Shown piece after piece: positions 12,090 through 16,758 of a stretch of DNA of 37,715 nt. This stretch comes from an uncultured bacterium. Its GTDB lineage: Bacteria > Planctomycetota > Phycisphaerae > Phycisphaerales > SM1A02. Location of the stretch: positions 1 to 37,715 of the forward strand of contig CAIUGT010000150.1 in the NCBI GenBank assembly GCA_903898755.1, read 5' to 3'. Position numbers and translations under genes: made by a program. Within the stretch, counting starts at the first letter, position 1. Every line of letters starts with the position of its first letter. Below the pieces are notes generated by a model. That model was not told the origin of the DNA, did not search any database, and worked only from the letters and a program-made list of their open reading frames with translations.

Positions 12090-13517
12090 TTGGTAATTTT
12101 GAAAGCGTTGAATCGCCCCACGCAACGATTTGCTTTCAGAGCCGCATTTCTTGCCGCCATGTCCTGCGTGTCCGTGAGTTTGGGTGACGACGCGACGGAC
12201 CGCTTTCTGAAAGCGCTCTCCAGCACAAGTATGAGCGAAACACGCCTTGGCACCCTGAGCGAAACTCAAGACTTTGGAACATTTTGGTTGGTGCCGAATG
12301 TTGATCCGTTCTTTGGCCCGCACAAGCCATTCATTCGACTGGCCATTGATGCGCCGCAACCCATTCCGATAGATGAGGGCCGCATCGATCCGCTTTTTTC
12401 CACGGATCCATTTTCTCCCATCACCTCGCCGCTGCGAAACATGGAATTATGGATGCGTGAAATATTGAGCGTGAAGACCGACTTGTACAATTGCACGGTC
12501 GCCCAGCAGGCAAGTAGCAGTATCGCAGGGCAAGTCCGTGGCGCCGTGAGCAATCGATTCAGTTACAGGATTGATTGGAAGGCCTGGGAGATTGAGGGCG
12601 TAGGTATTGGCTCCATCACGGCGCAATTTCGCGCAAATAACAATTGGAGCGCGCAAAATGTGAACATTGGCAGCGCCATTGGTTCCTCGGTTGTGGTCGT
12701 GAATTCAGAGGACAATTCAATGCCAACTTTTTTGTCGCGCCTCTACGCGCAACAAGGTTTTTGCGATGACCGCATTCTGGTTGGCGCCGGGAAAATACTT
12801 CCCAACGACACCACGGGCGTGAATTTTTTCGCCGACGATGAAACCAGCCAATTTCTTGCGAGTTGTTTTGACGGCGGTGACGCCATGCCGCTTGGGTGGA
12901 ACAGTTACTTGCCCGGCGCATTCGCGCAATTTATTCCTGTTGATGGATTTTATGTGAACACGCTTCTGACAAGCCCGCTTGGCGCGCTGAATTCTGGTGG
13001 AGGTTTTGGAACTGCTGGCGACGGCTTCTACTTAATCGGCGCCGAAGCCGGCATTGTGACCACGCTTGGGTCCAACAAAGATTTGGTGGGTCGCTATTCC
13101 GTTTTAGTGTGCAACACCAACGCGGGCAACAATACTCCCGCCACCAATGAAAAAGAGTATGGCAACGCCATGACGCTGATCGCGCAGCAATTTCTTGATC
13201 GCGACATGGGGGTTTGGATTTCCTATCAATTCAGCGATGCCAACGTGAGTCCCGCTTCTCAAGAGTTCACATTCGGGTCAAGTTTGGAAAATGCCTTTGG
13301 TAGGCATGGCGATGGCGCGGGTCTTGGATTGGCTTGGACCGATTCATCCACGGCGGGGGATCGCCAGCAAAAAACGATCGAAACTTACTATCGTCTGCGG
13401 CTGACAGGCAGCCTGGAATTGACCGCGGATCTTCAATTGATCGACGATCCATCCAATCCACAAGCCAAGGGCGGAGCGACGTGGGTGTTTGGCCTTCGCT
13501 CTAAAATTAAATTTTAA
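12090..13517 (+). CDS. OprB-like carbohydrate-selective outer-membrane porin
   Basis: About 475-aa beta-barrel protein. The N-terminus has a signal peptide (FAFRAAFLAAMSCVSVSLG) with processing expected near residue 32. The body is rich in short amphipathic strands and Gly/Asn/Asp loops. The last 60 residues (TIETYYRLRLTGSLELTADLQLIDDPSNP) match the OprB-family ending, where Y..L...L..TADLQ.I..P precedes a final strand closing in a terminal aromatic residue (KIKF). OprB porins admit sugars across the outer membrane. The start is uncertain: TTG at 12090 is used because a signal peptide is needed, TTG at 12099 is equally possible, and ATG at residue 24 would cut the signal. It diverges from argR across about 58 bp that holds the ARG box. 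Confidence 0.75.
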   Translation: MVILKALNRPTQRFAFRAAFLAAMSCVSVSLGDDATDRFLKALSSTSMSETRLGTLSETQDFGTFWLVPNVDPFFGPHKPFIRLAIDAPQPIPIDEGRIDPLFSTDPFSPITSPLRNMELWMREILSVKTDLYNCTVAQQASSSIAGQVRGAVSNRFSYRIDWKAWEIEGVGIGSITAQFRANNNWSAQNVNIGSAIGSSVVVVNSEDNSMPTFLSRLYAQQGFCDDRILVGAGKILPNDTTGVNFFADDETSQFLASCFDGGDAMPLGWNSYLPGAFAQFIPVDGFYVNTLLTSPLGALNSGGGFGTAGDGFYLIGAEAGIVTTLGSNKDLVGRYSVLVCNTNAGNNTPATNEKEYGNAMTLIAQQFLDRDMGVWISYQFSDANVSPASQEFTFGSSLENAFGRHGDGAGLGLAWTDSSTAGDRQQKTIETYYRLRLTGSLELTADLQLIDDPSNPQAKGGATWVFGLRSKIKF

Positions 13518-13526
13518 ATTGCGCAA

Positions 13527-13559
13527 GAAAAAACCAGGACGTGCGGGACGTCCTGGTTT
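13527..13559 (-). terminator. Rho-independent terminator of infC
   Basis: A perfect 12-bp stem (arms 13531-13542 and 13548-13559, loop of five bases) lies between the convergent porin and infC genes. On the - strand the stem runs directly into six T residues, so it is an intrinsic terminator for infC. In the + direction it is followed by GCACATG with no T-run, so it could only be a weak stop for the porin mRNA. Confidence 0.88.
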
Positions 13560-13593
13560 GCACATGCAAGTTTCAAAAATTCAAACGACCAGT

Positions 13594-14391
13594 TTAGGAA
13601 TTGGCCTCAGTTGAAGTTGGAGTTGCAACGGTTGCATCCGTGGCGGCAACAACTTTCTTAGGCTTGGTCACTTTCTTTGGCTTCTTCACAGCGGTTTCAC
13701 CCGCGGTCGAAGTCGCTGTATCGCCATTGGCAACTGCATCGCCCACTGGCTTGGTTGCCGCGGCTTTTTCCGCCTTGGTTGGCGCAGGCTTTGGAGTTGG
13801 ATGCTTGCGCTTGTAAGCGTCAATGCGCGCGCGATCTGGCGACAACATGGCGGAGAGTCGCTTGCCATTGAATCTTGGCGGACTATCCAAGCGCGCCAGA
13901 TCAACCAACTTTGCGATTGCATCGTTCAATTTCACGGCGCCAATTTCCTTGTGCGCCATTTCGCGGCCCTTGTAACTGGCCACCAATTGAACTTTGTGTC
14001 CTTCAAGCAGGAAACGCCGCGCTTGTTGCACGCGAATCTCAACATCATGCGGATCCACTTTCATGCTGCGACCCAAGCGAACTTCCTTCATTTCAAAGGT
14101 CTTGGTCTTGCGACCTTGCTTGTCCTTTTTCGCTTGCTCGTATTTGTACTTTCCAAAATCCATGATCTTGCAGACCGGCGGCCGCACATCGGGCGCGATC
14201 TCCACAAGGTCAAGACCAGCCACCATGGCAAGTCGGCGCGCTTCTTCTGTTTCAACAACACCAAGCATTGTTCCTGTCTCGTCGATCAAACGAACAGGTG
14301 TGATGCGAATGCGATCATTGATGCGAGGACCAAAATTGGAACTTGACTCAGGTCGTGACATGGGCGGACGGCGGGGCGGAAATGCTGAGAT
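13594..14391 (-). CDS. infC: Translation initiation factor IF-3 with long basic C-terminal tail
   Basis: IF-3 keeps the 30S subunit free and checks start-codon pairing. The N-domain INDRIRITPVRLIDETGTMLG, the linker YKYEQAKKDKQGRK and the C-domain beginning KEVRLGRSMKVDPHDVE are all clear. About 70 extra residues follow the usual end near PTPKPAPTKAEKA, rich in Lys, Ala, Thr and Val (VKKPKKVTKPKKV), and are presumably unstructured. The start chosen is ATC at 14391, preceded by AAGGA at a seven-base spacing. ATG at 14361 is the alternative but has no Shine-Dalgarno site. Rare AUU/AUC/AUA starts are a known hallmark of infC autoregulation. rpmI and rplT, which usually follow infC, are absent and a terminator lies there instead. 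Confidence 0.92.
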   Translation of the reverse strand: MSAFPPRRPPMSRPESSSNFGPRINDRIRITPVRLIDETGTMLGVVETEEARRLAMVAGLDLVEIAPDVRPPVCKIMDFGKYKYEQAKKDKQGRKTKTFEMKEVRLGRSMKVDPHDVEIRVQQARRFLLEGHKVQLVASYKGREMAHKEIGAVKLNDAIAKLVDLARLDSPPRFNGKRLSAMLSPDRARIDAYKRKHPTPKPAPTKAEKAAATKPVGDAVANGDTATSTAGETAVKKPKKVTKPKKVVAATDATVATPTSTEANS

Positions 14392-14403
14392 GGAAGAATC
14401 CTT
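14389..14403 (-). promoter_or_regulatory. infC ribosome-binding site with probable ATC start codon
   Basis: On the - strand AAGGA (14403-14399) is followed by seven bases and an in-frame ATC (14391-14389). No ATG, GTG or TTG lies at a suitable distance from this Shine-Dalgarno site. A TTG at 14427 would precede it and an ATG at 14361 is about 36 bases beyond it. Because IF-3 discriminates against ATC starts, such an arrangement would let the factor limit its own synthesis. Confidence 0.6.
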
Positions 14404-14664
14404 TATGTAGAGACAATGGAAATGCAAAGCGCTTCAAAAGCGATTGCTGTGCAAACCGGATTGACCGGAGAAACGCAAGACAACGGGGGCAGAATCATCA
14501 TGCCTGTACGAAGAATTTCTGAGACATGCAGTCGTTGTCCTTGAGTTGCTTTGAAGCGGTGAAACGCTCACCACCTACACAGTACAAAGTACCTGCACAA
14601 GCATGACCGATGCAATGGGATTTGCAAGTGATTTTTCGACAGATTTTACATCTTGTGGCAAATG
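14392..14664 (-). other. thrS-infC intergenic leader
   Basis: 273 bp between the thrS stop and the infC start. No gene of convincing composition is present. I see a short inverted repeat (CGCTT...AAGCG near 14429-14442) but no run of T residues that would make a terminator, so infC may be transcribed from thrS by read-through as well as from its own promoter. No ribosomal-protein leader motif is recognisable by eye. Confidence 0.5.
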
Positions 14665-16758
14665 TCATTTTGTGTTTGGCGTGATTTTTCCAGCCAATGT
14701 TTCACTTGCGCGGGTTCGATAGTCCGAAACCAGCGCTGCGACAAAGTCGTCAAAAGGCATTTCGCCCGCATTTTCAGCCTTTCCATGCAGTCGAATGCTG
14801 ACCACACGGCGCTCGGCGTCACGCGGACCCACAATGGCCGTGACCGGAATCTTTTGCTCGGCGGCAATGCGAATGCGGTTCTGAACGCGTTCTGAACTTG
14901 TATCAAGCGTGGTGCGCAGGCCAGCTTGGTGCAGCGCGGCGTGCAATTCTTGCGCGTAGGCGTCGCTCTTTTCACTAATCGGAAGCACGCGCACTTGCTC
15001 TGGACTGAGCCACAACGGAAACGCGCCTGCGAAGTGCTCAATCAACACGCCGGTGAATCGTTCCAGACTTCCAAATGGCGCGCGGTGAATCATGACTGGT
15101 CTATGCGTCTTGTTGTCGGCGCCTTGATAGGACAGGTCGAATCGAATGGGCAAGTTGTAATCCACTTGCACGGTGCCAAGTTGCCAAGAGCGACCGATGA
15201 CATCGCGCACAACAAAATCAATCTTGGGTCCGTAGAAGGCGGCCTCGCCTGGCTCTTCGCTGAAAGGAACGCCAAGCGATTGCGCCGCGTCGCGGCACGC
15301 TTGTTCGGCTTTTTCCCAATTTTCCGCAAGGCCAACATATTTGGCGGAGTCCGGTCCGCGCAAGCCAACGCGCACGCGGTAATCCGTCATGCCCAGTGTT
15401 CCAAAAATAAGTTTGACAAGTTTCAAGCAGCCTTGCAGTTCATGCGCGACTTGATCTTCGCGGCAGAACAAATGCGCGTCGTCTTGTGTGAAACCACGAA
15501 CGCGCGTCAAGCCGCCAATTTCTCCCGACTGCTCCCAGCGATAGACCGTTCCAAATTCAGCCAAACGCACGGGCAAATCGCGCCATGAGCGCGGCTCACT
15601 GGCGAAAATGCGGATGTGGTGCGGGCAATTCATGGGCTTGAGCAAATAGCCATCAATCTCGCCTTTTTCCAAGCGATTTGAAAGGTCGGCGCATGTGCAA
15701 CCTTCTTTGGCAAGCGTGCTCATGCTTTCGTGGTCAATGATTGGCGGGTACTGGCTCTCGCGATAATAAGGAAAGTGTCCGCTGGTGCGATAGAGATCCA
15801 GTTTGCCAATGTGCGGTGTGAACACTTGGTGATAGCCCTGTTGTCGCAGCGCTTCACCGATGAATGTCTGCAACTCCTGGCGAATCACGGCGCCGTTTGG
15901 TTTCCACAACACAAGGCCTTGTCCAACCATTTCATCGATGTGAAAAAGTTGCAATTGTTTTCCAAGGACGCGGTGGTCGCGCAACTTGGCTTCTTCAAGT
16001 TGCTTCATGTGCGCGTCAAGCTCCGCCTTGGATGCGAAGGCGGTTCCATACACGCGCGTGAGTCGATCACTTTTTTCATCGCCGTGCCAATAGCTGCTGG
16101 CAAGCGTTGTCACTTTGTACGCGGCAACGCGCGCGGTGGTTGGCACGTGCGGACCGCGGCAAAGGTCTTCCCAATTTTTTCCAGGCGTTCCCGTTGCGTA
16201 CCAACTCAGCGTGGCGTCGCCGCCAGAAGTTTTCGCCGCATCGCAGGCGCGCCGCGCGTTGTCAATTTTATATTTGCTGCCTTCGCTGTTGGCCTTGGCC
16301 ATGCCATCGGCGGCGTTCATTTCAAAGCGCGTGAAGGGTCGATCTTCTGCGACAATTCGAGCCATTTCCTGCTCAATTTTGGTGAAATCGTCGGCGCTTG
16401 GAATTTGTCCGGCGGGGAAGGCCATGTCGTAGTAGAAGCCTTGCTCCACGGGCGGTCCATACACCAGTTGCACGCCAGGAAATAAATTGCTGATGGCCTC
16501 CGCCATAATGTGCGCCGCGGAATGGCGCACAAGAAACAGCGCGTCTGGGTCAATTGTGCCGTCGCGTTTTTTGGGAGTGACAATGGCCAACTGCGCGTCG
16601 CGCGACATTGTTGTTGAGAGGTCGCACAACACGCCGTCAATCTTTGCGCCAAGGGCGGCTTTGGCAAGACCCGCTCCAATATCGGCGGCCACTTTCGCGG
16701 CGGTTACAGGGGCGTCATAAGTTTTTGTGGTTCCGTCTGGAAGCGTGATGACTGGCAT
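14665..16758 (-). CDS. thrS: Threonyl-tRNA synthetase
   Basis: 697-aa class II synthetase. The N-terminal TGS domain spans residues 1-62. The editing domain carries HSAAH (79-83) and CRGPH (200-204), the two halves of its metal-binding site. The catalytic core includes LKPMNCPHH, with zinc ligands Cys378 and His380, and a C-terminal anticodon-binding domain beginning near WLSPEQVRVLP. Compared with the E. coli enzyme there is an insertion of about 30 residues just before the zinc motif (about 340-372), containing Cys-Thr-Cys (EGCTCADLSNRLEKGEIDG). The start is ATG at 16758, 12 bp after nrdR, without a clear Shine-Dalgarno site. Confidence 0.97.
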   Translation of the reverse strand: MPVITLPDGTTKTYDAPVTAAKVAADIGAGLAKAALGAKIDGVLCDLSTTMSRDAQLAIVTPKKRDGTIDPDALFLVRHSAAHIMAEAISNLFPGVQLVYGPPVEQGFYYDMAFPAGQIPSADDFTKIEQEMARIVAEDRPFTRFEMNAADGMAKANSEGSKYKIDNARRACDAAKTSGGDATLSWYATGTPGKNWEDLCRGPHVPTTARVAAYKVTTLASSYWHGDEKSDRLTRVYGTAFASKAELDAHMKQLEEAKLRDHRVLGKQLQLFHIDEMVGQGLVLWKPNGAVIRQELQTFIGEALRQQGYHQVFTPHIGKLDLYRTSGHFPYYRESQYPPIIDHESMSTLAKEGCTCADLSNRLEKGEIDGYLLKPMNCPHHIRIFASEPRSWRDLPVRLAEFGTVYRWEQSGEIGGLTRVRGFTQDDAHLFCREDQVAHELQGCLKLVKLIFGTLGMTDYRVRVGLRGPDSAKYVGLAENWEKAEQACRDAAQSLGVPFSEEPGEAAFYGPKIDFVVRDVIGRSWQLGTVQVDYNLPIRFDLSYQGADNKTHRPVMIHRAPFGSLERFTGVLIEHFAGAFPLWLSPEQVRVLPISEKSDAYAQELHAALHQAGLRTTLDTSSERVQNRIRIAAEQKIPVTAIVGPRDAERRVVSIRLHGKAENAGEMPFDDFVAALVSDYRTRASETLAGKITPNTK

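Follow-up and report, generated by a model that had tools for sequence, protein, structure and literature searches.

The AUU start codon of Escherichia coli infC and the autoregulation of its product, initiation factor IF-3, reportedly go back to work by Butler et al. in 1987 and Sacerdot et al. in 1996. IF-3 is described as rejecting start codons other than AUG, GUG and UUG, and infC as a known case of feedback that starts with AUU in E. coli and with AUC in Streptomyces (PMC5472188). The start of Staphylococcus aureus infC, as mapped by retapamulin ribosome profiling, is given as AUA (PMC13009471). A sequence-only reading of the DNA studied here had pointed to infC as the classic gene with rare AUU, AUC or AUA starts, in agreement with these accounts of E. 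coli, Streptomyces and S. aureus (PMC5472188, PMC13009471). Rare infC start codons as such are already established, and the AUC start considered below adds another case.

The sequences upstream of infC and of genes in general have also received attention. The infC 5' UTR of Mycobacterium tuberculosis is described as long, highly expressed and suggested to be regulatory, and is noted for its resemblance to the infA 5' UTR (PMC3207917). According to Korolev et al. (2016, PMC4833913), short leader genes that end 10-11 bp before the main gene form a general peak, which is also seen in Planctomycetes. Here we analyze infC of an uncultured bacterium of the Phycisphaerales (Planctomycetota). The window, that is, the whole stretch of 37,715 nucleotides that was analyzed, is one contig (C150) of a 2.59-Mb genome consisting of 154 contigs.

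The infC locus

The genes on the minus strand follow the order pyrH, frr, nrdR, thrS, infC, all five identified via NCBIfam. The infC product scores 166.7 bits against NCBIfam TIGR00168 (cut-off 60), which identifies it as IF-3, and it matches PF00707 as well as IF-3 chains in the PDB, with a best E of 6.6e-37. The C-terminal tail of about 78 residues (13594-13830, minus strand) is rich in Lys, Ala, Thr and Pro and lies outside the part that matches solved IF-3 structures. The features of the locus are collected in Table 1.

Table 1. Features of the infC locus and its leader in window coordinates
Feature	Position	Strand	Remarks
infC (IF-3), 265 residues counted from ATC	13594..14391	-	translation, TIGR00168, PF00707
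infC start codon ATC	14389..14391	-	in frame, 7 bases past AAAGGA; conserved across the order
infC Shine-Dalgarno (SD) sequence AAAGGA	14399..14404	-	6-base match to own 16S anti-SD
In-frame internal ATG, codon 11; expected pick of an ATG-based ORF finder	14359..14361	-	no SD match
Mini-ORF 2, ATG in ATGA overlap with mini-ORF 1 TGA	14403..14501	-	open in all eight close relatives
Mini-ORF 1, ATG...TGA, MSQKFFVQA	14498..14527	-	AAGGA at 14542-14538; ATG in all eight relatives L002-L009
Promoter-like TTGCAT-N18-TACTTT upstream of infC leader	14586..14615	-	6/12 consensus bases; comparative support
Terminator-like hairpin 3' of infC, 12 pairs then TTTCTTGCGC	13531..13559	-	consensus only

The end of thrS is at 14665, leaving 273 nt to the infC ATC. 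A measure intended to detect thrS beside infC in other genomes (an open frame of at least 95 codons) also fires in 22 of 56 family loci, in which an ORF can extend back through a G+C-rich leader. The rplT gene is located on a separate contig (C41:38901-39218) and is not the downstream neighbour of infC, as it is in E. coli. The hairpin found 3' of infC is taken as a consensus match only, because the region contains two terminator-like sites compared to 2.5 expected from shuffled sequences.

The putative AUC start codon

On the minus strand, AAGGA (14403-14399; AAAGGA from 14404) is followed by seven bases, TTCTTCC (14398-14392), and then by ATC (14391-14389), after which nine codons precede the in-frame ATG 14361-14359. 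The sequence-only reading had placed the probable start of infC at this ATC, seven bases past AAGGA, and had expected an ATG-based annotation to lose ten residues; motif and spacing can be read directly from the minus strand, and the ATC plus the nine following codons make up the ten residues. The bacterium's own 16S rRNA ends in ...GGATCACCTCCTTTCT, and AAAGGA is therefore a 6-base match to the anti-SD sequence. In line with the same reading, which saw no ribosome-binding site at ATG 14361, there is no SD match of at least 4 bases at this ATG or at TTG 14427, the only ATG, GTG or TTG codons upstream of the IF-3 core. An ATG, GTG or TTG with an SD match is present within the first 60 codons of 20 of the 27 long ORFs in the window. 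The ATC is thus a non-canonical codon that is in frame and at SD distance, with no better ATG, GTG or TTG nearby.

Other candidates were considered and rejected. TTG 14427, in addition to having no SD, is lost in two relatives (L003 and L007). An in-frame ATA at 14406 overlaps the SD sequence and has no SD of its own by eye, and ATC ranks best.

The motif AAGGA-N7-ATC occurs once in the window, where 0.64 occurrences are expected, and at least one match was present in 47 of 100 shuffled sequences. The motif is no rarer than chance, and the weight of the argument therefore rests on its conservation in relatives.

Conservation of the start in related genomes

The start rule applied to the relatives was lenient and required an in-frame codon with an exact match of at least 4 bases to AGAAAGGAGGTGAT ending 4-11 bases upstream. 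In the first set of genomes, an in-frame AT[TCA] with an SD match was found in 13 of 14 loci of the genus, 19 of 20 of the rest of the family and 23 of 23 of the rest of the order, and also in 4 of 4 loci of the class. Genomes fetched later yielded 23 of 24 family loci and 30 of 31 order loci, so that altogether 108 of 112 infC loci in the order have ATC, ATT or ATA in frame behind an SD match. Counts in the two wrong frames, which served as controls, were 6 and 1 of 14 for the genus, 5 and 4 of 20 for the family, 2 and 3 of 23 for the order, and 0 and 0 of 4 for the class. Loci L032-L038 were excluded from the first-set start counts as relatives or duplicates of counted genomes (for example, the sequence of L033 is that of L016), and L010 and L041 were dropped because they have no N-terminus. 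There was no infC match in genomes G015 and G040, and the match in G025 was partial.

Most of these loci offer a single candidate. Among 57 genus, family and order loci, the SD match is at AT[TCA] only in 48 and is longer there than at ATG, GTG or TTG in four, while three are ties and two have neither; the later set also holds ties between the two kinds of codon (L317, L298 and L341).

The four loci of the order without an in-frame AT[TCA] start are L016, L025, L318 and L334. In L016, known from a single MAG contig, a 7-nt deletion removes the ATT from the reading frame of IF-3 and fuses that frame with mini-ORF 2 (see below); this deletion, present in L016 and L033, may be a real change or an assembly error. 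L025 and L318 have CTG at the position of AT[TCA], behind AAGGA or GAGGA, and hence a non-canonical start appears to be kept despite the codon change. L334 has an ATG 12 bases past AAGGAG, beyond the gap rule, and this ATG is probably its infC start.

The ten codons from ATC to ATG were compared among eight close relatives. Variable columns number 0 of 10 at first, 1 of 10 at second and 5 of 10 at third codon positions. The corresponding values are 3, 3 and 15 of 22 for the first 22 infC codons and 3, 0 and 41 of 50 for the infC core. Variation between ATC and ATG is nearly confined to third positions, and on this comparative evidence the codons appear therefore to be translated, which places the beginning of translation, in all likelihood, upstream of ATG 14361. 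The 15 bases before the ATC contain only one variable column in the same relatives, suggesting that the sequence directly before the ATC is constrained by something other than codons. The proposal that infC probably starts at the ATC is thus supported both by the 108 of 112 order loci and by the third-position variation in the ten codons. The AAGGA-ATC unit, on whose conservation that proposal had been staked, is kept as an SD with an in-frame AT[TCA] across genus, family and order.

The survey of the wider phylum, in which 130 loci were read from 141 genomes with a match, gave a more mixed picture. In the 125 phylum loci outside the class, AT[TCA] with an SD match is in frame in 76 compared to 21 and 23 out of frame; the SD match is at AT[TCA] only in 63 of these loci, at ATG, GTG or TTG only in 30, at both in 15 and at neither in 17. 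Rare infC starts thus appear to be widespread but not universal in the Planctomycetota. A further 72 loci, mostly from other phyla and taken from among the best 80 of more than 540, have AT[TCA] in frame in 67 cases and out of frame in 15 and 9. In the E. coli control, the ATT that follows GGAGG is the annotated infC start.

Two coupled mini-ORFs upstream of infC

Transcription of infC most likely begins at a promoter in the gap that follows thrS, which would give the mRNA a leader of about 190 nt. A stricter sigma-70 consensus scan of 13400-14800 found no promoter (0.9 expected). The pattern TTGC-N16..18-TANNNT is present at positions -330 to -150 in 26 of 51 family loci and 30 of 52 order loci, with shuffle means of about 0.6 and a maximum of 3 in each case. 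Downstream of the promoter-like site, a hairpin with a CGT-type loop (14555-14580, minus strand) seems by eye to be conserved in family leaders, with compensating changes, but folding z-scores are only mildly low.

The leader contains two mini-ORFs, a feature beyond what the sequence-only reading had mentioned. The TAA stop codon of mini-ORF 2 (14405-14403) overlaps the infC SD sequence, with 11 bases between stop and ATC, so that this ORF has the form expected of a re-initiation leader gene, being short and ending close before the main start. Across the 48 family chains of such ORFs (defined below), an SD match accompanies the start of mini-ORF 2 in one and the start of mini-ORF 1 in 21, and the stop of mini-ORF 2 falls at -18 to -4 in 31. 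In L313 the infC start was probably called 12 codons late; relative to the likely ATC, the end of mini-ORF 2 lies 3 bases upstream. Mini-ORF 2 exhibits no codon-position signal, with variable columns of 14/33, 13/33 and 11/33 at the three positions and 213 non-synonymous compared to 64 synonymous pairwise changes. Its peptide is therefore not conserved, and the sequence of the peptide seems not to matter. A block shared within the genus, CCGGTCAATCCGG, is conserved at the DNA level and persists in L017 despite a one-base shift.

Two side observations concern the mini-ORFs themselves. At 21 of 43 family junctions, a number of which come from close relatives, the sense codons of mini-ORF 1 number exactly nine, and no peptide conservation is visible between genera. 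Inside mini-ORF 2, about 40 bases before the ATC, lies the inverted repeat CGCTTTTGAAGCG (14430-14442, minus strand), a weak terminator-like site of 5 pairs; in L008 one arm is altered, with the pairing kept by eye.

For the purpose of counting, a chain was defined as an ATG ORF of at least 7 codons including the stop, followed by a second ORF whose start overlaps that stop and whose end is at -45 to +15. This statistic was defined after the first loci had been inspected, and was then applied unchanged to fresh genomes. In the first set, chains were found in 20 of 25 family loci (shuffle mean 2.2, maximum 7), the family having been thinned to 25 by omitting close copies, and in 12 of 27 other loci, five of them from the family (shuffle mean 2.4, maximum 9). 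In fresh genomes, 22 of 23 family loci have a chain (shuffle mean 1.96, maximum 7). The chain is weaker outside the family, with 13 of 30 fresh order loci (shuffle mean 3.5, maximum 9). L318 and L334, for which no AT[TCA] start was called, were excluded from these fresh counts, so that 23 of 24 and 30 of 31 loci were used. Seven of eight previously unseen family genera are positive, the miss being L281. When all loci including close copies are listed, with L016 entering by its out-of-frame ATT, the counts are 48 of 57 for the family and 23 of 52 for the rest of the order.

The reading frame of the second ORF provides a separate comparison. Where the junction is ATGA, the end of the second frame falls at -45 to +15 in 34 of 43 family cases compared to 14 of 43 for the +2 frame, and for the remaining loci of the order the figures are 18 and 7 of 28; the +1 frame is zero by construction and was not used. 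In the wider phylum there is no enrichment of chains (9 of 74 loci compared to 6.4 from shuffles). In other phyla 21 of 65 loci score (shuffle mean 7.0, maximum 15), but several of these chains are by eye C-terminal parts of the upstream gene, and they are therefore not counted as infC leaders. The background in the window is 5 of 43 other ATG ORFs of at least 150 aa.

No shared sequence is visible by eye between leaders of different genera. The chain recurs nevertheless, and the architecture thus seems to be conserved even though the sequence is not. A coupled chain also precedes infC in L334 with its probable ATG start, and the leader is therefore not strictly tied to the rare codon. In the open-licence papers searched, no description of a coupled mini-ORF chain before infC was found.

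Alternative explanations

One can argue that infC starts at ATG 14361 or TTG 14427 and that the upstream AAGGA-ATC is coincidental: an ATG is present at the position of ATG 14361 in most loci of the genus, the AAGGA-N7-ATC string is expected 0.64 times per window, and one member of the order, L334, probably uses ATG. However, the SD is absent at both codons, the counterpart of ATG 14361 is GTG in L008 and missing in many genera, and the codons before the ATG evolve like coding sequence. Moreover, 11 of 20 family loci and 7 of 23 order loci have no ATG, GTG or TTG at all in the 60 codons that precede the core. Seventeen of these 18 loci are thus left with AT[TCA] alone out of the six start codons, which makes it the sole usual or rare start in 17 of the 43 first-set family and order loci; the eighteenth locus, L025, has CTG. 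We consider a start at ATG 14361 or TTG 14427 highly improbable, and we are confident, as far as sequence comparison allows, that infC is translated from AUC 14391 into a 265-residue IF-3 beginning (f)Met-Ser-Ala-Phe-Pro-Pro-Arg-Arg.

The remaining alternatives concern the leader only. If the AUC start and plain IF-3 autoregulation are real, the mini-ORFs could still go untranslated and simply result from a different constraint acting on the leader, consistent with the lack of purifying selection on the mini-ORF 2 peptide and with the genus block that is kept as DNA in spite of the shift in L017. This explanation has to accommodate the recurrence of the chain in genera without visible similarity between their leaders, its presence in 22 of 23 fresh loci of the family, where shuffles give at most 7, and the excess of second frames ending near the start (34 compared to 14 of 43); we regard it as possible, with the odds somewhat against it. 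The mini-ORFs could also merely deliver ribosomes to a weak start codon, with no IF-3-dependent control in the leader, a view to which we give about the same limited credence. Short leader genes ending 10-11 bp upstream have been proposed as general translation boosters (PMC4833913), and the mini-ORF 2 stop at -18 to -4 in 31 of 48 family chains fits such a role, but ribosome delivery does not account for the retention of two coupled steps of which the first lacks an SD. A transcription attenuator or a protein-binding RNA like the Bacillus L20 leader, in which the mini-ORFs would serve ribosome-dependent folding, seems considerably less probable than either. In its favour are the long leader with a promoter-like site, the weak 5-pair terminator-like site at 14442-14430, the L20 attenuation described for B. 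subtilis infC (PMC10931766) and some signs of folding. The 50 nt after the -10 box form slightly more stable structures than shuffled sequences, with a mean z of -1.17 for the family, where 9 of 26 leaders lie below -1.5, and of -0.73 for the other loci of the order, where 5 of 30 do; in addition, 8 of 22 RNAalifold pairs are altered on both sides in one or more sequences. On the other hand, RNAalifold on 14 leaders gives only -8.8 kcal/mol over 250 columns, with 22 scattered pairs, 3 of which belong to the CCGG hairpin, and shuffled sequences yield terminator-like sites at least as often as this region does. The leader (14370-14680) has no Rfam match at E up to 1, the L20 leader included, and an Rfam search of the whole window at gathering level matched only a tRNA. 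With rplT on another contig, an L20-type operon is not apparent.

Possible feedback by IF-3

These results lead us to infer a scheme in which the mini-ORFs would be translated and would feed infC, with IF-3 acting on them as well as on the infC start, so that feedback would result. Since IF-3 rejects codons other than AUG, GUG and UUG as starts, the AUC start would make infC translation inversely dependent on IF-3, as in the negative feedback of E. coli. In vitro, IF-3 is reported to lower initiation by an AUU/CAU pair (PMC10158994).

In the leader, a ribosome starting at mini-ORF 1 would re-initiate at mini-ORF 2 through the ATGA overlap, without an SD. A ribosome leaving mini-ORF 2 would stop on the infC SD sequence, 11 bases before the AUC, and could start infC there. 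That the leader is functionally coupled to infC in some such way is, on the comparative data, somewhat more probable than the opposite, whereas control by IF-3 within the leader is less probable than not. Yoo and RajBhandary reported that raised IF-3 lowers re-initiation, and the events described as inhibited by IF-3 include both non-canonical starts and SD-less re-initiation (PMC2268962). The infC leader and start contain both kinds of event. Because SD-less re-initiation in E. coli is suppressed by an excess of IF-3, such a leader would make this feedback tighter. In vitro work on 70S scanning, on the other hand, describes IF-3 as supporting re-initiation, an effect opposite in sign to the one proposed here (PMC12548453, PMC5972666). 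Furthermore, infC has its own SD, and its last re-initiation step therefore need not match the SD-less step in sensitivity to IF-3.

We tentatively propose a nested feedback in this order, in which IF-3 might gate three successive steps on one mRNA, the SD-less passage of ribosomes from mini-ORF 1 to mini-ORF 2, their re-initiation at infC after mini-ORF 2, and recognition of the AUC or AUU codon, the leader acting as a ribosome-relay sensor of free IF-3; we hold this complete scheme to be less probable than not. If the leader works as proposed, it offers a natural test of the disputed question whether IF-3 inhibits or supports re-initiation in cells. The start codon fixes the N-terminus of an essential protein as far as sequence allows, whereas an ATG-based annotation would cut ten residues. 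The same consequence for annotation extends across the order, which is represented here mostly by MAG genomes.

Comparison with known systems

The locus resembles that of E. coli in that infC follows thrS and encodes IF-3 with a non-canonical AU[UCA] start downstream of a good SD. It differs in the start codon itself, AUC rather than AUU, and in its layout: in E. coli thrS ends 3 nt before the AUU and infC is followed by rpmI-rplT, whereas here a gap of 273 nt holds a promoter-like site and mini-ORFs. The ATC start, and with it the problem for annotation, is shared with Streptomyces infC, which is described as misannotated in most Streptomyces species (PMC5472188); that account, as far as it deals with the infC start, does not mention a coupled mini-ORF leader, whereas two mini-ORFs are present here. 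S. aureus infC likewise has a rare start, in that case AUA, in another phylum and mapped experimentally (PMC13009471).

With respect to the leader, a long sequence before infC is shared with the L20 leader of B. subtilis infC-rpmI-rplT (PMC10931766), but there is no L20 leader match here and rplT is not linked. The description of the M. tuberculosis infC 5' UTR does not mention, where it discusses that UTR, the coupled mini-ORFs that are present here (PMC3207917). A parallel to mini-ORF 2 is provided by the leader genes of Korolev et al., which are likewise short ORFs ending right before the main start (PMC4833913). As described there, that set allows one leader gene per gene and names no gene class (PMC4833913), whereas the present locus combines two coupled ORFs with infC and a non-AUG start.
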